Source: Psychromonas sp. 14N.309.X.WAT.B.A12
GTDB taxonomy: Bacteria > Pseudomonadota > Gammaproteobacteria > Enterobacterales > Psychromonadaceae
Reading direction: 5' to 3'
DNA: 64,000 nucleotides
Assembly: GCF_030397575.1 (NCBI RefSeq)
Contig: NZ_JAPNXS010000005.1
Coordinates: 186,001-250,000, forward strand
Below, one piece after another: positions 18,488 through 44,017 of the stretch. The notes under the pieces were generated by a model, which made no database searches, was not told the DNA's origin, and saw only the letters and a program-made list of their open reading frames with translations. Numbering within the stretch: position 1 is the stretch's first letter; every line of letters begins with the position of its first letter. Both the position numbers and the translations under genes were made by a program.

Positions 18488-18630
18488 TTTAAAAATCCTA
18501 TTCGGTGGAGGGAAAGCTTCCCTATTAAAGCGATGAACAATTCAATTTAATGGCACTTTGATAAACGCCACACAAATAAATATACGTGCCGTTGGTAGGG
18601 GTGAGAAATACTGATAATGTATAGCATTAA

Positions 18631-18642
18631 TACAAATTTGTA
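18631..18642. promoter_or_regulatory. Palindrome between symporter and LysR genes
   Basis: TACAAATTTGTA is a perfect 12-bp palindrome 17 bp upstream of the LysR start, in the 172-bp divergent gap. Its TTGTA/TACAA halves resemble the FadR-type sites near other alginate genes, but the spacing differs. It may equally be the LysR protein's own dyad (T-N11-A type). The assignment between the two is open. Confidence 0.45.
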
Positions 18643-18659
18643 ATAAAAGGAAAGGGTTA

Positions 18660-19565
18660 GTGGAAATTAAAGCATTAAAAACCTTCATCGCCGTTGCCGC
18701 TTTAAAAAACTTTTCAGCAGCCGCAAAGCAGCTCTATACGGTACAACCTAACATTAGCCGACAAATATCAGATCTAGAAAAAGAGCTAGGTGTTAAGCTT
18801 TTTACGCGTAGTACACGCGAAGTAAATTTAACTGAAACAGGAAAAATCCTGTTGCCAGAAGCCATTGAAATTGTTGCAAACAATACACGCGTCACAGAAT
18901 TGGTCAGAGCAGCACAAGATAAACAACAAAGTTTACGTATTGGTTACCTTGCTTCTGCTTGCTCTACTTTTTTCCCACAACTTGTCAGTCAATTTTCAAA
19001 GTTATATCCACACATTAAAATATCAATTCAAGAAATGACATCTAAGGAGCAATTAAACGCTTTATTAGAAAACAAGATTGATGTTAGCTTTTCAAGACCT
19101 CAACCTTTGTTAGATAAAGAACGCTTTTATTGTGCAGAAATTTATACAGATCCTTTGGTTGCTGCGATTCCTGATGGACATCCACTACTAAAAACAGATG
19201 AAATCACCTTTCAAGACTTAAAAAACGAAAACTTCATATTATTCAAACCTGAAGAAGCCATGGATTTACACCATCACATTGTCTCAAATTGTGAGAAAAA
19301 TGGCTTTTACCCTAATATAACCTCTCATCATGGCAATATACGTAGCTTAATGACAGTAGTCTCAGCTGGACTGGGGATTTCATTTGTACCAACATGCGTT
19401 AAACACTTAGGGTTAAATGATTGTCAGTTTATTACCATGCAAGAATTGGATATGACATTAAAACTAAACTTGTATCATCCTGCAGCTAATTGCCCAGCAC
19501 ATGTCAGTCAATTTGTTGATTTTTGTGCTTCTAAAAACATCTCTCTCGGGCATCACATTAATTAG
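18660..19565 (+). CDS. LysR-type transcriptional regulator
   Basis: This 301-residue regulator has an N-terminal winged helix (residues about 1-60: FIAVAALKNFSAAAKQL, QPNISRQISDLEKELGVKLF, the standard LysR HTH). The C-terminal periplasmic-binding-protein-like effector domain (about 90-295) includes LRIGYLASA and the LVAAIPDGHPL block. The start is GTG with an excellent AAGGAAAGG upstream. It is divergent from the symporter-acetyltransferase-lyase operon and is the obvious local regulator; its inducer is probably a breakdown product such as an unsaturated uronate, by inference. Confidence 0.9.
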   Translation: MEIKALKTFIAVAALKNFSAAAKQLYTVQPNISRQISDLEKELGVKLFTRSTREVNLTETGKILLPEAIEIVANNTRVTELVRAAQDKQQSLRIGYLASACSTFFPQLVSQFSKLYPHIKISIQEMTSKEQLNALLENKIDVSFSRPQPLLDKERFYCAEIYTDPLVAAIPDGHPLLKTDEITFQDLKNENFILFKPEEAMDLHHHIVSNCEKNGFYPNITSHHGNIRSLMTVVSAGLGISFVPTCVKHLGLNDCQFITMQELDMTLKLNLYHPAANCPAHVSQFVDFCASKNISLGHHIN

Positions 19566-19748: not shown

Positions 19749-19759
19749 AAATAATACAA
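19749..19759 (-). promoter_or_regulatory. Weak FadR/GntR-type site upstream of the 19812 lipoprotein
   Basis: On the minus strand this reads TTGTATTATTT, sharing the TTGTATTA core with sites near other alginate genes but with two mismatches to the FadR-family pattern TNGTNNNACNA. It is 53 bp upstream of the lipoprotein start. Chance occurrence is possible in this AT-rich DNA. Confidence 0.3.
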
Positions 19760-34317: not shown

Positions 34318-34328
34318 TTGTATTATAA
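34318..34328 (+). promoter_or_regulatory. FadR/GntR-type site upstream of the PL7 lyase
   Basis: TTGTATTATAA fits the FadR-family pattern TNGTNNNACNA with one mismatch and is 87 bp upstream of the lyase start. It shares the TTGTATTA core with the sites at 38825, 39360 and 44007. Confidence 0.45.
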
Positions 34329-34415
34329 TTAGATTTTATTGTTAAACCGAGTCAATACAAAGCGAATTAATAACAGAAAATCTCTATTAACTCTTATGAA
34401 AATGGACATCATACA

Positions 34416-36170
34416 GTGAAATATAAATTAATAAGTAGTGCCATATTATCAGTATTCCTTAGTGCATGTGGTGGTAGCGGCAGTAGTTCTAGTAGCAGTG
34501 AAGGTACGGATACAGATTCATCTAGCTCAGATAATTCAAGCTCAACAGGATCATACTCTGGCGTACCTTACGATTATGTACAATATATCCATGCACTTAA
34601 TAATGCGAAATTGCAGCAAAACAACCCACCAACAAGCAGTTCAACCTCTGAAGTGGTTGATGCAGGTGAATATAATGGTTTTGATAATGATTACTTTTAT
34701 TTAGACTCAACCACTGGCTGGTTAACCTTTGAAATGACAGGAGATAGCAAACGTTCTGAATTGCGCTTTGTTGAAAATTTTAGAACCAATACTTCTGAAA
34801 TATCCACATTAAGTGCAGAAATATTGCCTATTTCACCTGAAGAATCTGTTGCATCTAGTGGTGATGGGCAAGAGATGACATTAATGCAGGTGCATAATAA
34901 AGGTGAAAATGGTGAAACCGATGACACCGTATTATCTCACCCGCTACTACGTATTGTTTGGGATGGAGAAAGCCGTACAGATGATGATACTGGTGACTCC
35001 TACAGCAATGCTTATTGGGCGATCATTAAAACGAATGCTTATGAGTGTAAAGATGACAGCAACCCTAACTATAATGACAACTGTCCTGATTCTTATGACT
35101 TTTATTATTTAGCTGATTACGACCAAGATAATGCAACAAAATTTGACATTGAAGCAGGTGACAGCACTTTAATTATCAATGTTGATGGTGATGAAAAAGT
35201 TAATATAGATATTACCTACTGGGATGACCTATACAGTTACTTTAAAGCCGGTGTTTATAATCAATATGAAGATGGAACCAGCACGGTTCAATTTAAAAGC
35301 CTAACTTATAATGGAACAACACTACCAAGCGCTGATCTAGATTCCTCTTCAGCACCTTCAGATAACTTTGAACTCAATGATTGGAATTTGAGTATCCCAA
35401 CCGATGATGATAATAGCGGAACGGCAGATACCATTGATGAAGATGATTTAAGCGATGGCTATGAAGATTTTGAGTACTTTTATACTAATACCGACGATGG
35501 CGGCATGGTATTTTATGTTGAAGTAGACGGCTATAAAACGTCAACAAACACCTCTTACACACGTACCGAGTTACGCGAAATGTTACGCGAAGGTGATACG
35601 AGTATTTCAACAAAAGGGGTTAATGAAAATAACTGGGTATTCTCATCAGCGCCCACCAGCGAACAAGAAAAAGCAGGTGGCGTAGATGGTATTTTGGATG
35701 CGACGGTTGCGGTTAACCAGGTATCGACTACCGGTGAAAGCTATCAAATAGGTCGCGTTATTATTGGTCAAATACATGCTAATGATGATGAACCGGTTCG
35801 CCTTTATTACCGTAAGTTACCGGACAACGACAAAGGGTCTATTTACTTTGCTCACGAGCCACGTACTGGTGATGAAGTATGGGTTGATATGATTGGTAGT
35901 CGTGATAATAACGCCAGTAATCCAAGTGATGGCATTGCCTTAGATGAGCCTTTTTTCTATCAAATAAAAGTGGTCGGTAACACATTAACAGTTACCATCA
36001 TGCGCGATGGCAAAGATGATGTGATTGAAACTTGGGATATGACTGATAGCGGCTACGACGAAACAGGCCAATACATGTATTTCAAAGCGGGTGCCTATAA
36101 CCAAAATAATTCAGGAGAAGATGACGAAGCTGCACAAGCTACCTTTTACTACCTAAATAACCGTCATTAA
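34416..36170 (+). CDS. Lipoprotein alginate lyase with two PL7 domains
   Basis: This predicted extracellular, surface-anchored endo-alginate lyase has 584 residues, with lipobox LSACGG (Cys18) and a long Ser/Thr/Asp linker to about residue 47. Two PL7 jelly-roll catalytic domains follow. Domain 1 (about 50-300) has RSELR (113-117), QVH (158-160) and YFKAGVYNQ (275-283). Domain 2 (about 318-584) has RTELR (383-387), QIH (452-454) and YFKAGAYNQ (555-563). These are the three PL7 active-site motifs, supplying Arg, Gln, His and Tyr, and both sets look complete. QIH versus QVH often tracks polyguluronate versus polymannuronate preference, so the two domains may differ. The start is GTG with a poor Shine-Dalgarno; upstream ATGs are out of frame. 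Confidence 0.9.
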   Translation: MKYKLISSAILSVFLSACGGSGSSSSSSEGTDTDSSSSDNSSSTGSYSGVPYDYVQYIHALNNAKLQQNNPPTSSSTSEVVDAGEYNGFDNDYFYLDSTTGWLTFEMTGDSKRSELRFVENFRTNTSEISTLSAEILPISPEESVASSGDGQEMTLMQVHNKGENGETDDTVLSHPLLRIVWDGESRTDDDTGDSYSNAYWAIIKTNAYECKDDSNPNYNDNCPDSYDFYYLADYDQDNATKFDIEAGDSTLIINVDGDEKVNIDITYWDDLYSYFKAGVYNQYEDGTSTVQFKSLTYNGTTLPSADLDSSSAPSDNFELNDWNLSIPTDDDNSGTADTIDEDDLSDGYEDFEYFYTNTDDGGMVFYVEVDGYKTSTNTSYTRTELREMLREGDTSISTKGVNENNWVFSSAPTSEQEKAGGVDGILDATVAVNQVSTTGESYQIGRVIIGQIHANDDEPVRLYYRKLPDNDKGSIYFAHEPRTGDEVWVDMIGSRDNNASNPSDGIALDEPFFYQIKVVGNTLTVTIMRDGKDDVIETWDMTDSGYDETGQYMYFKAGAYNQNNSGEDDEAAQATFYYLNNRH

Positions 36171-36175
36171 TTAAT

Positions 36176-36226
36176 AATATCCCCTGATTAACAAGCTATA
36201 GTGTTATTTGTCAGGGGTTATTTTTT
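36176..36226 (+). terminator. Terminator after the PL7 lyase
   Basis: CCCCTGA (36181-36187) and TCAGGGG (36211-36217) form the core stem, extended by AATAT/TTATT with one mismatch, and TTTTTT follows at 36221-36226. Confidence 0.85.
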
Positions 36227-36907
36227 CCTGAGTACTAAGCATCTCCTCTATAACTCCCCTACCGCATTACAATTTCTACTTTATTGTATGACAACTGATC
36301 AATTAACTTTAAACAACAAAACCTAACTGGTCTGTTTAATGCTTTGAATATTGAGCACCACTCAAAAAGCATGCACAGCTAAAAGCATTATTAACAAGGA
36401 TAAATATAAGCGATTTACATCTCGAAAAATCAGGAATAAATAGATTAACGGATATCGCTCTTCATAAAAAGTAGCCAACAGAAGTGAGCAAAGCGACGAT
36501 GTTTAGGCGCGGCCTGACCTAAGGGACGAAGGATGAATTAAGCGCCCCTTAATCACATAAGAGGGTGAACTATGCCTCCCCTTTTTAAGAGCCTTTCAGT
36601 ATGCCAGTTATCGCACACGAGCATCCACTTAGTTGATCAATACTAAGCAAAACTAGCGTATATGAATAAACGAACAAACCAAAACAAGTAGGCTGAAGCA
36701 AGGGCAGCACTCGATCGCTGTCGTACGACCACCAGACACGCAGAGCTCAACCCGATCATAAAATGATACAGCTATACCATACGCCCTCTCTACTACATAA
36801 AAGAGTGACCACTGCACGCGGCTTTATTCACCTCATGCTCAGTCGATATCAAAAACAAAATAGTTAAAATAATTCGCCAAAGTCATAACAGAACATAAAT
36901 TTTACGC
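36227..36907. other. Long non-coding stretch of distinct composition
   Basis: About 680 bp between convergent genes has no credible coding sequence. From about 36470 to 36850 it is visibly richer in G and C than other gaps here, with segments such as TTTAGGCGCGGCCTGACC and AAGCGCCCCTTAA, a TACGACCACC run and CTCAACCCGATC. It may be the remnant of a lost gene or mobile element, or a structured RNA. I cannot identify it. The plus-strand end near 36285 holds TTGTATGACAA, a full match to the FadR-family operator pattern without a gene beside it. Confidence 0.4.
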
Positions 36908-36940
36908 AAAAAAAAGCGGTTAGATAATCTAACCGCTTTT
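36908..36940 (-). terminator. Terminator of the second SSS symporter
   Basis: AAAAGCGGTTAGA (36912-36924) and TCTAACCGCTTTT (36928-36940) form a perfect 13-bp stem with a 3-nt loop. On the minus strand it is followed by a run of eight T (36915-36908). Confidence 0.93.
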
Positions 36941-36970
36941 ACTATTTGCATTTAATAAACGCTAACCTGA

Positions 36971-38767
36971 TTAATCCATTTCTGGTAATCGGTCTTTATC
37001 TGAATCATCATCATCTTCATTTACTTGGCTAACTGCTTTAACAAGTAGTAAACCAACAGCGAACACGATACCACCACATAATACGAAGATTAAACTTTGC
37101 ATAAATGGGTTTGGTAAGAAGAACATTGCCATAATACCAACACCCGCTGTACCAATTAACATACCTAACATGCGACGTTGCTTGTTATCAAGGTGTGCTT
37201 GAGCAGCAGACTTATTATGAAGAGGCGTAGCTAAATTCGTGAAGAATGTATCAACGTCTTTCTCACGCTCTGCCGATAATGGTTTGTAGAAGAACATAGT
37301 TGCACAGAAGAAACCACCTGTAATAACAATGTGACCTAATAAACCTAGACCTACTTTCAAGTCTTTCCATTCACGACCAGTTAACGCAGTATCTAAGTTA
37401 AACCAGTTTTGGATATCAGTTGCTGAGATAACAAGACCTACATAATAAGACACACATGCACCAACAATTAATGTTGCCCATGCTGCCCAGTCTGGTGTTC
37501 TACGGATAAAGAATCCACAGAATGCTGGTACTGTCATAGGGAAGCTGATTAACGCACCTACATACATCATAGTATCAAATAAGCTCAACCCTTTTAGTGA
37601 GTTAATGAATAACGCTACTAGGATAATGATTAAACCAAACACTGTTGATGTGATTTTAGAACAAGTTACTAACTCTTTCTCTGTTGCTTTTGGACGTAAA
37701 ACGACTTGGTAGAAGTTTTTAACAAAAATACCAGAGTTACGGTTTAGACCTGAATCCATTGAAGACATGGTAGCCGCAAACATCGCAGAGATAAGTAAAC
37801 CAACCATACCAACAGGCATATATTCATCAACAAAGTAAAGGTAAGCATAATCTGCTGCTTTTTTACCTGCATCTGGATACATAGCTGTTAAATCAACACC
37901 TGTAGACGCTAAGAACCAACTTGGTAGGAACCAAATTAATGGCCCCATTGTCATCAGAACACAAGCTAATAGAGCAGCTTTACGTGCATTTTTAGAATCT
38001 TTTGCCGCAAGGTAGCGGTAAGAGTTAAGCATGTTATTAGTAATACTGAATTGCTTAACAAAGATAAAGAATGACCATAACGCAAAGATGCTAAAGTAGT
38101 TGATTTCAGTACCAACAAGGAAAGTTACTTCGCGTACTTCTTCGAAACCTTCAATGATGTTTGAAATGCCGCCACCTTGATTAAGCGCTACAATCGCACA
38201 AGTAATTGTTACCGCCATGATGATAACCATCTGCATAAAGTCAGATGCGATTACCGCCCATGAACCACCTGTTACAGACATGACGAGTACAACAATACCT
38301 GTGGCCCAAATGGTTGTTTCAATATCTACACCAAAAATACCAGAAGCGATAATAGCAAGACCATTTAACCAGATACCTGCGTTAATAACGCTGTTCGGCA
38401 TACCTGTCCAGGTAAATACTTGCTCATTTTTACTACCAAAACGTTGACGTACCGCTTGAATAACCGTTACTACGCGCAATTGGCGAAACTTGGGAGCGAA
38501 GTAAGCAAAGTTCATGAAGTAACCAAATGCGTTAGCCATGAAGATAATCGCAACAGTAAAACCATCGTTATAAGCTTTACCAGCAGCACCTGTAAATGTC
38601 CAAGCACTAAATTGGGTCATGAAGGCAGTTGAACCTACCATCCACCAGAGCATGTTACCGCCCCCACGAAAGTAATCACTTGTATTAGTGGTGAACGTTC
38701 TGAACATCCACCCAATTGCAATAAGGAATAAGAAATAAACCCCTACTACTAATATATTAAAATCCAT
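36971..38767 (-). CDS. Sodium:solute symporter (SSS family), ToaB-like alginate oligomer importer
   Basis: This 598-residue inner-membrane symporter is closely related to the one at 16703-18487. It shares NTSDYFRGGGNMLWWMVGST, GGSWAVIASDFMQM, KQFSITNNMLNSYRY and MFAATMSSMDSGLNRNSGI. About 14 hydrophobic segments and an acidic C-terminus (DDDDSDKDRLPEMD) are visible. The family imports alginate-derived oligomers or unsaturated uronates with sodium in Vibrio. It is monocistronic, preceded by AAAGGG, and divergent from the KdgM-like porin gene. FadR-type and CRP-type sites lie 58-95 bp upstream, so induction and catabolite control are likely. Confidence 0.9.
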   Translation of the reverse strand: MDFNILVVGVYFLFLIAIGWMFRTFTTNTSDYFRGGGNMLWWMVGSTAFMTQFSAWTFTGAAGKAYNDGFTVAIIFMANAFGYFMNFAYFAPKFRQLRVVTVIQAVRQRFGSKNEQVFTWTGMPNSVINAGIWLNGLAIIASGIFGVDIETTIWATGIVVLVMSVTGGSWAVIASDFMQMVIIMAVTITCAIVALNQGGGISNIIEGFEEVREVTFLVGTEINYFSIFALWSFFIFVKQFSITNNMLNSYRYLAAKDSKNARKAALLACVLMTMGPLIWFLPSWFLASTGVDLTAMYPDAGKKAADYAYLYFVDEYMPVGMVGLLISAMFAATMSSMDSGLNRNSGIFVKNFYQVVLRPKATEKELVTCSKITSTVFGLIIILVALFINSLKGLSLFDTMMYVGALISFPMTVPAFCGFFIRRTPDWAAWATLIVGACVSYYVGLVISATDIQNWFNLDTALTGREWKDLKVGLGLLGHIVITGGFFCATMFFYKPLSAEREKDVDTFFTNLATPLHNKSAAQAHLDNKQRRMLGMLIGTAGVGIMAMFFLPNPFMQSLIFVLCGGIVFAVGLLLVKAVSQVNEDDDDSDKDRLPEMD

Positions 38768-38824
38768 ATCGAGACCCTTTAGTTATTTATGATTGGCAAA
38801 ACCATATCTCAGAGAGAAGATTAA

Positions 38825-38835
38825 TTGTATTACAA
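38825..38835. promoter_or_regulatory. FadR/GntR-type operator upstream of the SSS symporter
   Basis: TTGTATTACAA fully matches TNGTNNNACNA, the FadR-subfamily operator pattern of GntR regulators. It sits inside a 13-bp palindrome ATTGTA-T-TACAAT (38824-38836), 58 bp upstream of the symporter start, and overlaps a candidate -10 (TACAAT). The regulator at 43263-43976 is the natural candidate binder. Confidence 0.6.
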
Positions 38836-38846
38836 TAATAAAAGTA

Positions 38847-38862
38847 TGTGATTGAAATCATA
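38847..38862. promoter_or_regulatory. CRP-like site upstream of the SSS symporter
   Basis: TGTGATTGAAATCATA matches the CRP dyad TGTGA-N6-TCACA at nine of ten conserved positions. It lies about 38 bp upstream of the inferred symporter start point, near the usual class II position. Confidence 0.55.
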
Positions 38863-39359
38863 TTAAATAGAAAGGTATCGTAAAGAATATAATCTAGATC
38901 AGGTTTCAATCTGTTAGAAGTCCTTATATAGAGAAGTATAAAACATACTCCCATGTATAAGGTTGGTATTATTTAAGCGTGCTTAACCCACTACTATTGC
39001 GCTCAAATAGAATAAATAAAATCCAATGTAAGCCGCACGATTACTAGCACAGTCAAATAAAACAAAAAAATAAAAAATGAAAATGCTCTTATCACACCGA
39101 ATCAAAATTGATTTCAATTTTTGCTGTGACATAGCGCAAAAAAAGTACATAGAGGACTACTTTAGTCGTATTATTTAAAAACAAAAATGTTACACAGCTC
39201 TCTATACGAACTAAAAGCCATTAAATACAAAAATCAAAAAATAAATACAAACCATTGAAAATAAAGACTTATAATTAAATTTATAAAAACCTGAATTTTT
39301 AGTACAAAAAAAGTTAGAGGGAACTCACAGAACAAAAGCACAAAAATTATGTATCCTAT

Positions 39360-39370
39360 TTGTATTATGA
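39360..39370 (+). promoter_or_regulatory. FadR/GntR-type site upstream of the porin gene
   Basis: TTGTATTATGA fits TNGTNNNACNA with one mismatch, 164 bp upstream of the porin ATG. The preceding TATCCTATTTGT is repeated at 44046-44057 upstream of the GntR regulator gene. Confidence 0.42.
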
Positions 39371-39533
39371 AATGCCAATTAAAACCGGTATTGAATAAAT
39401 ATTTTAAGTTTTAGTATTTACGATATTACAAGTTTATTGTTGTTCGTAAAAATAAGTTTTGCACTGTTCATACCTGCAACAATAAGACTAGAAATATAAA
39501 AAACTTTATATTAAATCAAATTGGAAGATAACC

Positions 39534-40277
39534 ATGAAACTACAAAATAAGTTAATTTTTGCTGTTGCAACTACAGTGCTCTCTGGCGCAGCATCTGCTG
39601 CTACTATCGACTTCCGCCATGAATACAAGGCAGATAACGAACAACAAGCAAGCCGAGTTAAACTAAGCAACAACTTCAGACCTGTAGAAGATATGAAAGA
39701 CCTTAAAGTTAACCTTGGTCTAGAAATGAAGTTTGCTAGTTTCGATAAAACAGACACGTTTGATGATACTTACTTAACTGAAACAGAGTTAGATATGGGC
39801 TTAACTTACCGTATCGGTAAATGGCAAATCAAACCAGGCATGCCAATCGCATTAACGGATCGTAAAAGAACCTTTAAACCACAAATTCGTATCGTTTATA
39901 AATCAGACTTTGGTTTACAAACGGCACTACGTTACCGCCATGAATTCGCTAACTACTCAGATCCAACTGATGGTGATACTAACGTAGAAACAGGTAATAA
40001 AGTTAACCGCCCTACTAAATCTAAAGTAACACTTACCGGTTCATACAAAGTGGAATCAATGCCAGATCTTAAGCTTAGTTATGAAGCAAACTACGTGAAA
40101 TCATGGGATAAAGTAAAACAATTTGATAATAAAGATTGGGAATATGATGCAGGTATAATTGTTGGTTACCAATTTGGTGATTGGCGCCCGTTTGCTGAAA
40201 TCTGGACTGTAGATGAGGGATCTAGCTCTAGTAAACGCCAAGCTCGTTACCGTGCGGGTATTAAATACAGCTTCTAG
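39534..40277 (+). CDS. KdgM/KdgN-family oligouronate-specific outer-membrane porin
   Basis: This 247-residue outer-membrane beta-barrel has a Sec signal peptide (cleavage at ASA|AT, residues 22/23), amphipathic strands throughout and a C-terminal Phe in RYRAGIKYSF, the barrel-assembly signature. The opening TIDFRHEYKADNEQQASRVKLSN and numerous basic residues (for example DRKRTFKPQIRIVYK) match KdgM-type porins, which pass anionic oligogalacturonate or oligoalginate. It lies divergent from the SSS symporter, giving an outer- plus inner-membrane import route for the products of the PL7 lyase. It is monocistronic with its own terminator. Confidence 0.85.
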   Translation: MKLQNKLIFAVATTVLSGAASAATIDFRHEYKADNEQQASRVKLSNNFRPVEDMKDLKVNLGLEMKFASFDKTDTFDDTYLTETELDMGLTYRIGKWQIKPGMPIALTDRKRTFKPQIRIVYKSDFGLQTALRYRHEFANYSDPTDGDTNVETGNKVNRPTKSKVTLTGSYKVESMPDLKLSYEANYVKSWDKVKQFDNKDWEYDAGIIVGYQFGDWRPFAEIWTVDEGSSSSKRQARYRAGIKYSF

Positions 40278-40333
40278 TAGCAATAGTCCATTGATACTAA
40301 GTTTAAAATGATTAATTGAGTCTGATCATTTAG

Positions 40334-40360
40334 AGCCACTTACTTGTTAAGTGGCTTTTT
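40334..40360 (+). terminator. Terminator after the porin gene
   Basis: AGCCACTTA (40334-40342) and TAAGTGGCT (40348-40356) form a perfect 9-bp stem with a 5-nt loop followed by TTTTT. Confidence 0.93.
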
Positions 40361-40473
40361 CATTTTTAAAATAAAAGATTAATTAGAAAACGATCAAGTA
40401 CAAAACACTCTATTATCCACTATAAAATAGCCATCACTGATTTAATTTTTACCGTTTTACTTTCCATTAAAGA

Positions 40474-41199
40474 TTATAATGGACGCGTGTAATCAAATTT
40501 CATATGTCGAACCGAAGAATCAGCTCCCTCGAAGTGTTGCTTAAGTAGTGCTAAATACAACTCACCAGTAGCTAATGAATCAACTAGCGCACCATGTGCA
40601 GAATACTCAGGTAAATGATGGCGTTCACGTACACTACCAAGACGAAAATCATCAGTGCCATTATTATCTTTGTAAATATGTAGAGACTTTTCCATCTGTA
40701 AGGTATCTACCCACAATAACGGTAAAGGCGGTAATTTATAACGCTTCGCCATATAATGATTTAAAAAACGCTTTTCTACTATGCTGCCATGAACGATTAA
40801 TACTTTGCCAACAGCTTCGGTTAACATTGCATCCAGCACCACATTCCATGCTTCGCCTTTTTCTAGCATTTCAGGAACAATATGATTGATCACTGCAGTT
40901 TCAGCTTTGACATTTTTAGCCGTATGAATCAATGTCTCTACTGCTTCAGATAACAACAACTGCTGATTAATTAAAGGCAAGTATCCCACACTTAATAATG
41001 AATCCGTTTTAGGGTTAAATCCTGATGTTTCAAAATCTAGTGACAAGTAATCCAATGAATAAATATCATCATCTAGGTCTGGTAATGGCGCTTCTAATAA
41101 GACACGTATGTTGTCAGGCACTTGGTGTGTTGACAAATATCGCTCTCGTTCACGTTGTAACTTATTAAGTGGATGAAAATGATTAAAAATACGACGCAT
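40474..41199 (-). CDS. DEDDh-type 3'-5' exonuclease (DnaQ-like)
   Basis: This cytosolic exonuclease-fold protein resembles the proofreading subunit of DNA polymerase III. Motif Exo I is LDFETSGF (Asp55, Glu57 in the numbering used here), an acidic/His pattern follows, and Exo III is HGALVDSLATGELY. I start at the ATG at 41199, which has AGAGAG upstream, giving 241 residues. A GTG at 41226 overlapping the neighbour's stop (GTGA) is possible. The gene directly follows the cNMP/CBS/DUF294 gene, a pairing seen in other marine gammaproteobacteria. The real substrate is unknown. Confidence 0.85.
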   Translation of the reverse strand: MRRIFNHFHPLNKLQRERERYLSTHQVPDNIRVLLEAPLPDLDDDIYSLDYLSLDFETSGFNPKTDSLLSVGYLPLINQQLLLSEAVETLIHTAKNVKAETAVINHIVPEMLEKGEAWNVVLDAMLTEAVGKVLIVHGSIVEKRFLNHYMAKRYKLPPLPLLWVDTLQMEKSLHIYKDNNGTDDFRLGSVRERHHLPEYSAHGALVDSLATGELYLALLKQHFEGADSSVRHMKFDYTRPL

Positions 41200-41222
41200 A
41201 GTTTTTCTCTCTGACCTAAATA

Positions 41223-43085
41223 TCACTGACGATTAAACTTCAATTTCGTATATTCTTGCAGATCTGCAATGATCCTAAAGGCATCTTTTAAATGCTTTCT
41301 TTCGAAGCTACCAAAAGCATTAGGATCGATGTGATTATCTGCTACTCGTCCTTCTTTTAACGCTGTAAATTGATGTGATAAACGTACTTGGGTAATAAAT
41401 TGGAATGCCCCTTGTACATTTTTCAACATATCTTCGCTTAATAAATTATTTTCATGTGCATGTTCGAAACGCGCCATGGTTTCGGCTTTTTCAGAGCCTG
41501 ACGACAACCCATAAATTCGAGCAAGATCGACCAACAAACTTAAAGCAAACTTTTTAATATTTAAGGTCTTAGAGTTTTCACCACTTTTTTCTAATACTAA
41601 TGAATTAAAAATACCTAGTGGCGGACTTACTGAGACGGAATCTCGCACCATGGAAGATAAAAATACATGTGAAGATTTAATACTACTGAAAAGGTGGTCT
41701 TGTAACTCTTTATTAAAGCTCTCATTACCATATAACCAGCGAGTTTCTAAAAATACCGTGGCATTTAACAAGCTATCATATTCTGGATTAGCAACCCATT
41801 TACTGTACGAGGCTTTCCACACTTTCAGTGGCATACACCACTTAGGATTAACCGCCATAAATTTACCGCTACACAAAGGGTATGCGCAGGCGTCAAGGGC
41901 ATTACATACCCACATTGCTAATCCCTGGAAATAGATGCGATCTGCAGCCGTTGCGTTATCCGCTAAAATAATCGCATTATCTTGGTCTGAGAGCATATGT
42001 ACTTCATTACGCGCATGCGAACCTGCAACGATCCAAGCAAATTCACAGGGCGGCTTACCAAAATGTTCTTCTGCGATTTGCAATAGACGACGATTATAGG
42101 CATCCATAATCAAGGTCATTACATGGCCAATAATATCGCCACTCACTTTACCTTCTACTAACGCCTCAAAGATCGCTTGGCGTTCAGGAGTTAATTTAGA
42201 TAAGTCAGCAACCGTCTTAGCATATTTTATTTTTTCAATCAGAAAAACTGCTTGAATCCTATTATTTCGGACCAAATGTGTTGTCGTTAATACCCCTAGT
42301 ACATTATTACCCTCGACCACTGGTAAGCTTCGCACGTTGTTTTGCATCATAATTGATGAGGCTTTTAACACCAGGTCGTTAGGGGCTACAGTTAATGGGT
42401 TAGGCGTCATGATCTCTTTAACTGGTCGACAGTAATCTAATCCAGCCACAATAACGCGTTTTGTCATATCGCGGTCGGTAACTAGGCCAACTATTTGGCC
42501 GTTTTCAGTAATTACCGCTGTTGGTGAACAAACCGCCATAATTTGCTCCGCGACTTGCCTAATCGGCGTACTAGAGTCAGCAACCACAATTTTATCACTA
42601 GCCACTTCGGATACTTTTTTAACAAAGATACCTTTTTCACTATCTGACCACACCACGTCTAACGCAGAGTGTAAACGTACCTGTACATTACTGGCAAAAT
42701 GCTCGGCAAAATCAGGGTACTCTTCTAAAAGATTTAATAGGTCAGAATGAGGAACCAAGTATAAAAGCGTATTTTCTAATGCGACTGCAGTGTAATCTTC
42801 CTGTGACTCTTTTTGTTCTGAAAGAAAGGTAAAGCCAAATAGATCTTCCGAACCTAATTTTGCCCGTAACATACCATTATGCTTGCGTTGCTCCATAGAT
42901 CCGGTTCTGACGACATATAAATAGCGTAGCTCATGCTCTCCACCAAACTGAATCTGCTCCCCCTTCGCGAGGTAAGTTATTTTTATACAACAAGCAATTT
43001 TACGTTGTAATTCTTTAGGTAATTTATCGAAGGGATCAATCGTTGCTAGGAAGTCATGAATGTTCGGTATTAATGTTTGAGGCAT
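41223..43085 (-). CDS. cNMP-binding / CBS-pair / DUF294 nucleotidyltransferase protein
   Basis: This 620-residue cytosolic protein has an N-terminal cyclic-nucleotide-binding-like domain (about 15-135) and a CBS pair (about 155-280, with VKEIMTPNPLTVAP and NNVRSLPVV). The DUF294 nucleotidyltransferase domain follows (about 335-465, with GSHARNEVHMLSDQDNAI carrying the GS...D.D pattern), then a helical DUF294 C-terminal domain. This matches GlnD-like signal-transduction nucleotidyltransferases of unknown target. It is probably regulated by cAMP or adenine nucleotides. Its stop overlaps a GTG ahead of the exonuclease gene, suggesting joint expression. Confidence 0.88.
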   Translation of the reverse strand: MPQTLIPNIHDFLATIDPFDKLPKELQRKIACCIKITYLAKGEQIQFGGEHELRYLYVVRTGSMEQRKHNGMLRAKLGSEDLFGFTFLSEQKESQEDYTAVALENTLLYLVPHSDLLNLLEEYPDFAEHFASNVQVRLHSALDVVWSDSEKGIFVKKVSEVASDKIVVADSSTPIRQVAEQIMAVCSPTAVITENGQIVGLVTDRDMTKRVIVAGLDYCRPVKEIMTPNPLTVAPNDLVLKASSIMMQNNVRSLPVVEGNNVLGVLTTTHLVRNNRIQAVFLIEKIKYAKTVADLSKLTPERQAIFEALVEGKVSGDIIGHVMTLIMDAYNRRLLQIAEEHFGKPPCEFAWIVAGSHARNEVHMLSDQDNAIILADNATAADRIYFQGLAMWVCNALDACAYPLCSGKFMAVNPKWCMPLKVWKASYSKWVANPEYDSLLNATVFLETRWLYGNESFNKELQDHLFSSIKSSHVFLSSMVRDSVSVSPPLGIFNSLVLEKSGENSKTLNIKKFALSLLVDLARIYGLSSGSEKAETMARFEHAHENNLLSEDMLKNVQGAFQFITQVRLSHQFTALKEGRVADNHIDPNAFGSFERKHLKDAFRIIADLQEYTKLKFNRQ

Positions 43086-43120
43086 AAGTTATCCTTTAAA
43101 AAACACTGTCATTTTAAGGC

Positions 43121-43153
43121 AAAAAGCCACCCTCCTAATAACGGAGAATGGCT
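43121..43153 (-). terminator. Terminator of the GntR regulator gene
   Basis: On the minus strand AGCCATTCTCC and GGAGGGTGGCT pair over 11 positions with two G:T pairs, then TTTTT. It separates gntR from the DUF294 gene. Confidence 0.83.
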
Positions 43154-43262
43154 ATAAAATCATATTAGTTTTGCTAAATACTCGAACACTAAGCATCAAA
43201 GTAATTTACACCTATTAATTAAATATAGTTGGAATAAATAACAAAGCTCTCATGAAGAGATC

Positions 43263-43976
43263 TTAATCATTACTTGGTAAACGGCGTTTACTTTTACTTA
43301 ATAGTTCAATATTAGCTTGTCTAGCTTTGTCTGCATCACCTGCCATGATCGCCGAATAAATAGCGCGATGTTCATTAATACAAGTGCTGCCTCTGATAGA
43401 TGAATGTGTAATGAAACTCTTAAACATAGTGCAAAGTACATTCGCAAAAGGCAGATAAAAGCTGTTACCTGTTGAGAGAAAAATCAGACGATGGAACTCC
43501 ATATCTGCATCTGTCCAGCTCTCTAATTCAAAGTCTTTGGAGATATCATCCATCTGTTGAAAAGTGGCAGACAATAAAATACGTTGTTGTGCAGTCGCAT
43601 TTTCAGCTGCGAGTGCAGCAGCTTCAGGCTCTAGAGCGTTACGTAATGATAAGAAATCACGATAAACTGCATCGTTATCACCCAAACCAGTCAACCAATC
43701 TAATAATTGTGAGTCTAAGAAGTTCCAATTTTCACGGCTAGTTACTCGGGTGCCGACTTTTGGCTTGGATTCTAGCAAGCCCTTGGATGTTAACAATTTA
43801 ATCGCTTCCCTTAAGGAGGTTCGACTTACTCTAAATTGTTCACATAAAGCCATTTCACCGGGAATAATCTCATTCTGAGCAACTTCCCCAGACAATATTT
43901 TGCGAGCAATTTCGCGCGCTACTTGCACATGTAAGCTGCGTTTTACTCCTGCTATTTCGACAAATGCATTCTGCAT
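43263..43976 (-). CDS. GntR family regulator, FadR subfamily (probable alginate/uronate regulator)
   Basis: This 237-residue repressor has an N-terminal GntR winged HTH (about 10-80, with PGEMALCEQFRVSRTSLREAIKLLTSKGLLESKP) and a C-terminal FCD helical ligand domain. That domain includes the metal/ligand motif region LRNALEPEAAALAA, DADMEFHRLIF and NEHRAIYSAIMAGD, the family's Asp-His-His layout. FCD regulators usually sense small organic or sugar acids. It lies in the alginate region beside the porin and symporter, and a full-match FadR-type site sits 31 bp upstream of its own start, consistent with autoregulation. Confidence 0.88.
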   Translation of the reverse strand: MQNAFVEIAGVKRSLHVQVAREIARKILSGEVAQNEIIPGEMALCEQFRVSRTSLREAIKLLTSKGLLESKPKVGTRVTSRENWNFLDSQLLDWLTGLGDNDAVYRDFLSLRNALEPEAAALAAENATAQQRILLSATFQQMDDISKDFELESWTDADMEFHRLIFLSTGNSFYLPFANVLCTMFKSFITHSSIRGSTCINEHRAIYSAIMAGDADKARQANIELLSKSKRRLPSND

Positions 43977-44006
43977 AAGATTCCTTCCTATAATAAAGTC
44001 ACTTAA

Positions 44007-44017
44007 TAGTAATACAA
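44007..44017 (-). promoter_or_regulatory. FadR/GntR-type site upstream of the GntR gene
   Basis: On the minus strand TTGTATTACTA fully matches TNGTNNNACNA and lies 31 bp upstream of the regulator's ATG, suitable for autorepression. A second, weaker TTGTATTATAT lies at 44094-44104. Confidence 0.5.

Follow-up and report, generated by a model that had tools for sequence, protein, structure and literature searches.

The window analysed here is a 64-kb stretch of the 3.77-Mb genome of Psychromonas sp. 14N.309.X.WAT.B.A12 (G000:C39:186001-250000). It carries genes for a two-domain PL7 alginate lyase, an SSS-family symporter that likely takes up alginate oligomers, a KdgM-family oligouronate porin and a regulator of the GntR/FadR subfamily, gntR1, each with a short operator-like element upstream (Table 1). 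A first-pass annotation had pointed to strings at these four places, described them by the pattern TTGTATTAYNA and proposed that one regulator controls the dispersed alginate genes. The strings are indeed present at all four positions. Here we examine what word they represent, which genes it precedes in this genome and its relatives, and which protein is predicted to read it.

Table 1. Genes and predicted sites in the window (positions from its first nucleotide).
Feature	Position	Strand	Remarks
Imperfect inverted repeat TTAATACAAATTTGTAATAA, 20 bp, outside the regulon	18627..18646		18/20 self-complementary; contains look-alike half-sites
Weak site TTGTATTATTT, unsupported as operator	19749..19759	-	retained in G014 and G023 but not in G015
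Predicted imperfect operator TTGTATTATAA, 87 bp before PL7 lyase	34318..34328	+	runs into TATAAT
Two-domain PL7 alginate lyase	34416..36170	+	Pfam Alginate_lyase2, two stretches, 4.5e-84
SSS-family symporter	36971..38767	-	Pfam SSF 3.1e-42
Predicted perfect operator TTGTATTACAA, 57 bp before SSS symporter	38825..38835		palindrome; conserved in genus and outgroup
CRP-like site TGTGATTGAAATCATA, 24.5 bp upstream of operator centre (centre to centre)	38847..38862		9/10 consensus positions
Predicted imperfect operator TTGTATTATGA, 163 bp before kdgM	39360..39370	+	overlaps possible -10 box
KdgM-family oligouronate porin	39534..40277	+	Pfam KdgM 2.8e-27
gntR1, GntR/FadR-subfamily regulator, 237 aa	43263..43976	-	Pfam GntR 2.6e-18, FCD 9.9e-24
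Predicted imperfect operator TTGTATTACTA, 30 bp before gntR1	44007..44017	-	kept in 9/10 gntR1 rows

In the whole window TTGTATTAYNA is matched exactly at these four sites only, against 1.22 expected, a number reached in 4 of 100 shuffles. Tolerating one mismatch gives 28 matches against 25.7 expected, which is the chance level. Because the pattern occurs at 47 places genome-wide, against 55 for its reversed control, it has no specificity as written, and with so weak an excess in the window and none in the genome we dropped any claim of significance for it alone. The clustering of the four sites is unusual: they fall within 9.7 kb, where about 0.12 of the 47 places would be expected at uniform density, although this figure is simple arithmetic for a region picked after the sites were seen. 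All four are intergenic, while among 25 of the other 43 places inspected 19 are coding and 6 intergenic.

The site before the symporter is a perfect 11-bp palindrome, and the other three are imperfect. Thus the four operator-like sites stand, while the wording of the motif does not: the true word is symmetric, an 11-bp dyad TTGTA-N-TACAA with A/T flanks, written here as TTGTANTACAA. For an out-of-sample test, loci were gathered by the regulator protein sequence alone, taking the best 80 of 190 stretches that encode a relative (the nearest named locus among these 80 is that of Psychromonas sp. B3M02, whose regulator is 98% identical). Putting aside 15 Psychromonas loci left 65 outgroup loci with 205 kb of intergenic DNA, in which we counted all 1024 words made of five bases, one free base and the reverse complement. 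TTGTA-N-TACAA ranks first, with 76 intergenic places in 46 of the 65 loci (and 3 places in their coding DNA), followed by a runner-up with 11 once runs of N are left out. When places with similar flanks are merged, 46 clusters remain, against 7 for the next best. Among the other shapes tried, with half-sites of 5 or 6 bases and spacers of 0-8, no count exceeds 28, and the shape that reaches it, ATTGT-N3-ACAAT, overlaps with TTGTA-N-TACAA. Any base can stand at the centre, and the two positions that flank the dyad on either side hold A or T in 94-96%. The loci with an exact dyad span Vibrio, Photobacterium, Shewanella, Agarivorans, Motilimonas and Aliivibrio.

The genes next to these outgroup sites were matched to the reference genes of this genome at E <= 1e-10, with start codons called mechanically. 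Of 91 such genes, 63 match the SSS symporter (36), the oligoalginate lyase PL17b (15), KdgM (5, 29-36% identical), a short-chain (SDR) reductase (5, 36-88%), kdgK (1) or gntR2 (1), the last being a paralogue of gntR1 described below. DUF294 and lp19812 account for one gene each, and 26 have no match in the reference set; one of the unmatched genes encodes a cupin protein (Pfam Cupin_2), which we take to be KdgF. In 27 of 36 cases the SSS site lies 58-79 bp upstream of the gene. This placement helps to decide whether the sites might simply be ordinary sigma-70 -10 boxes (TATTAT, TATAAT, TACAAT) in AT-rich gaps, whose common letters are promoter letters. Such an origin would suit the TATAAT into which 34318 runs, the TATTAT inside 39360, the TACAAT that a promoter scanner finds within the 38825 word, the chance level of one-mismatch matches and a conserved block at kdgM that is invariant well past 11 bases. 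A -10 box needs no dyad, however, yet it is the full palindrome that tops all 1024 words; the A/T flanks reach past a hexamer, the distance to most of the SSS genes falls in a narrow range, and before the SDR gene of two genomes (G003 and G018) the site relocates as a palindrome. We therefore regard promoter boxes as a very unlikely source of the dyad; for 34318 and 39360 taken alone, that reading is possible.

Conservation within the genus was followed in 24 genomes of the family group, our own included, all of one genus. The exact dyad precedes the symporter gene SSS1 in 13 of 14 Psychromonas rows, and in that alignment the site itself is the single window among 139 to reach its score; the corresponding numbers of windows scoring as high as the site are 11 of 249 for kdgM, 5 of 129 for gntR1 and 3 of 209 for PL7. 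Before kdgM, TTGTATTATGA sits in a 20-bp block that is invariant in seven of seven syntenic orthologues, and before gntR1 either TTGTATTACTA or TTGTAATACTA is found at -41 to -44 in nine of ten Psychromonas rows, the tenth having a partial match, so that gntR1 may regulate itself through the predicted site at 44007. Conservation in relatives, whose absence had been set beforehand as grounds for abandoning the regulon, is thus clearly present, both in the genus rows and in the outgroup dyads. One further string, TTGTATGACAA at 36284, was not accepted as an operator; it sits between converging genes.

The regulon is predicted to extend past the window, with sites on C8, C40, C1 and C43. Of the ten perfect dyads in the genome, six are conserved before orthologous target genes, including those for an SDR reductase, a TRAP transporter, a second PL7 lyase and fructose-1,6-bisphosphatase. 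Another two lie inside open reading frames (ORFs) (on C23 and at C39:154608), and the remaining two are at C1:633040 and C12:231512. A second GntR/FCD gene, gntR2 (C8:16048-16755), encodes a protein 79% identical to GntR1 and adjoins a PL17-PL17 pair and kdgK-eda. Before PL17b the exact dyad is present in ten of ten Psychromonas rows, at 321-344 bp. This gap is shared with kdgK in seven of the ten rows and with SSS in the three loci L065-L067, and the sites of those three loci enter both the SSS1 and the PL17b tallies. In nine of the ten rows a second, imperfect word, TTGTATTACTT (L061:11629-11639), lies at -40 to -53 before PL17b and is a possible second operator. In P. hadalis (L065), P. marina (L066) and G011 (L067), gntR, DUF294, the exonuclease, the PL17 pair, SSS and kdgM form mostly one cluster, with kdgK-eda included in L066. 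Because these loci hold most of the parts together, the arrangement in the window may have arisen by the splitting of a locus of this kind. In the window, genes for a CBS/DUF294 nucleotidyltransferase and an exonuclease (40474-43085) lie between gntR1 and the porin, as they do in six syntenic relatives (L049-L052, L054 and L055), and in L050-L052 and L066 the DUF294 gene is itself preceded by an exact dyad.

Other predicted targets lie further afield. The SDR reductase gene is found in 9 of the 24 genomes, all of them regulator-bearing, and the exact dyad is kept in all nine, relocated in the two genomes noted above. Among solved structures this protein matches reductases of 4-deoxy-L-erythro-5-hexoseulose uronate (DEH; 4tkl and 4w7i), which rank below other SDRs; as the 25 NCBIfam models shown all stay below their cut-offs, its role can only be guessed. 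The TRAP transporter gene dctP has seven exact and one one-mismatch site among nine close copies (a 52% paralogue, L281, is left out), at -400 to -492. Little of these 400-492 bp leaders between operator and start codon (L272-L279) is conserved apart from the operator's surroundings and the region next to the start. A PL7 lyase gene on C40 has two exact and three one-mismatch sites among five close copies, with 15 more distant PL7 rows outside the count. In all, the genome has ten PL7 domains in nine ORFs, including ones on C40, C1, C3 and C4, and the seven ORFs that have no near-dyad upstream may be constitutive or under another regulator. For the C4 ORF, the string TTGTATTATTA, 128 bp upstream, was rejected; it is absent from four similar copies in other genomes.

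A link to central metabolism is suggested by fbp, the gene for fructose-1,6-bisphosphatase. In seven close Psychromonas genomes an exact dyad lies at -111/-113 before fbp within an invariant 14-bp core, in an alignment where 10 of 159 windows are as well conserved as the site. The genus survey used homology-anchored starts and left 6 of 32 fbp matches, which have no locus, outside the count. In the eight GntR-minus genomes, none of the 8 examined of 11 fbp copies has a site. P. marina G006 (L188, L201) and G011 (L191, L202) each have a tandem fbp pair; one copy bears the operator at -37, exact in P. marina and with one mismatch in G011. Beyond Psychromonas, fbp in Vibrio breoganii and V. inusitatus is preceded at -36 by the one-mismatch word TTGTCATACAA, which their alginate loci hold too, while no site within one mismatch precedes fbp at 20 of 22 loci (28 genomes were searched, 21 with an fbp match). 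We put it at slightly better than even that the alginate repressor also controls gluconeogenesis, the predicted operator apparently having been gained repeatedly before fbp genes. If so, a local regulator of polymer degradation would turn on the glucose-making direction demanded by growth on a pyruvate-yielding polymer, and local polysaccharide regulation would be tied into central carbon flow.

The protein encoded by gntR1 has an N-terminal GntR winged helix followed by an all-helical FCD domain. FCD domains have seven helices in the FadR group and six in VanR, and in the AlphaFold model of GntR1 (predicted local distance difference test score, pLDDT, 87.4) the wing is followed by seven helices (89-96, 101-126, 129-147, 151-167, 172-192, 200-211 and 215-231). 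Foldseek places this model close to E. coli FadR (template modelling score, TM, 0.75; 17-18% identity) and also matches NanR (6on4, 24-25% identity); by sequence, the best PDB match is 7c7e (2.3e-27), which we take to be DgoR, with NanR 6on4 at 1.6e-09. FCD domains have a pocket for a metal or ligand lined by Asp and His residues, and D158, H162 and H203 are invariant, and H191 nearly so, in 42 regulator rows, a comparison of residue identity only. In and around the recognition helix, S51 R52 T53, L55 R56 E57 A58 and K60 are invariant in 88 regulator homologues (the tree leaves out L149), which fits one operator for all. FadR-subfamily operators are of the type TNGTNNNACNA, to which TTGTANTACAA conforms as a predicted site. 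As had been claimed, the window sites fit this pattern, TTGTANTACAA and the 44007 site in full and 34318 and 39360 with one mismatch each. The conservation in relatives gives strong support to a shared operator over the dispersed alginate genes, whereas a single regulator is not established, because the genome carries two paralogous GntR/FCD genes.

Could the dyad instead be the operator of some other alginate regulator that accompanies these genes, for example one of the LysR, IclR or LacI type? A LysR gene (18660-19565) adjoins PL17 and SSS2 in the window, a 2025 paper cites genome analysis in which LysR, GntR, IclR or KdgR are named for Vibrio (PMC12125979), and one genome, G021, has the dyad and lacks a GntR match. 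The outgroup loci, however, were gathered by the GntR protein alone, and the dyad fits the operator form of GntR/FadR proteins and has an imperfect copy before gntR1 itself. The LysR promoter, moreover, bears a different and longer inverted repeat, TTAATACAAATTTGTAATAA, which lies between the divergent LysR gene and an SSS2-hexapeptide-PL17 operon and has a similar counterpart in G014 and less similar ones in G023 and G015. It is probably the site of the LysR protein for a second, separately controlled alginate operon. A different regulator behind the dyad thus seems highly improbable. The string at 18638 was rejected as a GntR site because it is part of this LysR-side repeat. The weaker site proposed at 19749 was not supported either: it is a single half-site of a one-mismatch class found at chance level, and it is lost in G015.

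The promoters suggest how such an operator might act. At the symporter, the CRP-like site upstream of the operator was scored against what we take to be the CRP consensus; judged by eye, nearly all SSS1 alignment rows have similar letters there, and a TATA-like hexamer that lies about 25 bp on the downstream side of the operator centre recurs along the alignment as well. If that hexamer is the -10 element, CRP would lie near -61 and the operator over -35, a geometry of occlusion combined with CRP activation; the promoter scanner instead takes the TACAAT inside the operator as -10. The predicted operators of kdgM, PL7 and SDR each overlap a possible -10 element. In general, CRP-like sites (>= 8/10 positions) lie near 37 of the 76 dyads in the outgroup, compared with 26% of 2000 intergenic places drawn at random. 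As the outgroup loci are related, this is no more than suggestive.

Taken together, we consider it likely that TTGTANTACAA is the operator of an AlgR-like pair of FadR-subfamily GntR alginate repressors, GntR1 and GntR2, with CRP perhaps co-activating. The support comes from the conservation and placement of the sites, their co-occurrence with the regulator, the invariant DNA-reading residues and the FadR-like predicted fold, and we infer binding by GntR1 and GntR2, repression over activation, the identity of the effector, the role of CRP and the use of a shared operator by both paralogues. In such a scheme a regulator dimer would place one winged helix on each TTGTA half-site. When alginate is absent, it would occupy promoter elements of the porin, symporter, lyase, kdgK-eda, reductase, TRAP and fbp genes and of its own gene, blocking RNA polymerase. 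An intracellular alginate breakdown product would then release it, and CRP would aid firing of at least the symporter promoter. An activator working from the same operator is unlikely, if less so than the two alternatives above. The dctP and PL17b sites, at 400-492 and 321-344 bp from the start, are far for simple occlusion unless the leaders are long; several sites overlap putative promoter elements, and DgoR and FadR, characterised FCD relatives, act mainly as repressors.

Several observations weigh against an alginate repressor pair acting through this dyad. A site within one mismatch is present in just 4 of 18 gntR2-type rows. No exact dyad is found in 19 of the 65 outgroup loci, 12 of which have a one-mismatch intergenic form (raw count), TTGTCATACAA in six. 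The PL7 site TTGTATTATAA is kept in four of six orthologues and absent from L054 and L056, a count that leaves out our genome's own paralogues L078, L081, L083 and L084, and a near-dyad lies upstream of just two of its nine PL7 ORFs. Four further kdgM rows comprise one with an exact dyad, one with one-mismatch sites and two with neither, and an examined fbp copy follows an exact dyad in just 8 of 16 GntR-plus genomes. G021, which has an exact dyad before its SSS gene, tells little because it is 51% complete. Finally, the whole-genome dyad count is not in excess here (10 against 9 for the control) and exceeds the control in just 9 of 24 genomes, so it is uninformative as a test for the regulator's presence, and the meaning of the dyad comes from its position only.

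Among the titles and abstract starts listed in literature searches, none named an operator for alginate genes of Gammaproteobacteria, and a full-text search for the operator strings, with subscription papers and supplements outside its reach, gave unrelated papers alone. In the passages available, alginate-use regulation in Vibrio was termed elusive in 2026 (PMC13390454), and a 2025 paper assigned it by genome analysis (PMC12125979). Now that an 11-bp operator is defined, a regulator pair named and the targets listed, gel shift and reporter assays can test the proposal directly, and alginate regulons could be read in the genomes of Psychromonas, Vibrio, Photobacterium, Shewanella and Agarivorans. 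Of the predicted regulon, the links to fbp and TRAP were expected least.

Among known systems, E. coli DgoR, NanR and FadR have the same build as GntR1, a winged helix-turn-helix and an FCD domain, and differ in their ligands and operators. AusR of Zobellia galactanivorans was reportedly described by Dudek et al. in 2020. According to the passages available, it is a GntR-family repressor of alginate-use genes with single, double and triple operators, released by alginate breakdown intermediates (PMC8286568, PMC7874173). Likened by description only, the two systems share a GntR regulator on alginate genes, whereas the host of AusR is a flavobacterium; here, too, the predicted operator lies upstream of genes for alginate lyase, uptake and the KDG (2-keto-3-deoxygluconate) pathway. 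The alginate locus of Vibrio sp. C42 includes three GntR genes, of which two are alginate-induced and were deleted by the authors; 'palindrom' and 'EMSA' are absent from the main text of that paper, and the passages available give no binding motif (PMC13390454). By description, its GntR-1 and GntR-2 resemble our pair as GntR genes in an alginate locus. In Shewanella, a regulator algR and a transporter algT were listed for alginate in 2010 in the part of the source available (PMC2996990). Five of the eight Shewanella loci in our set carry the exact dyad, and algR, compared here by name only, may be the same regulator, already predicted.

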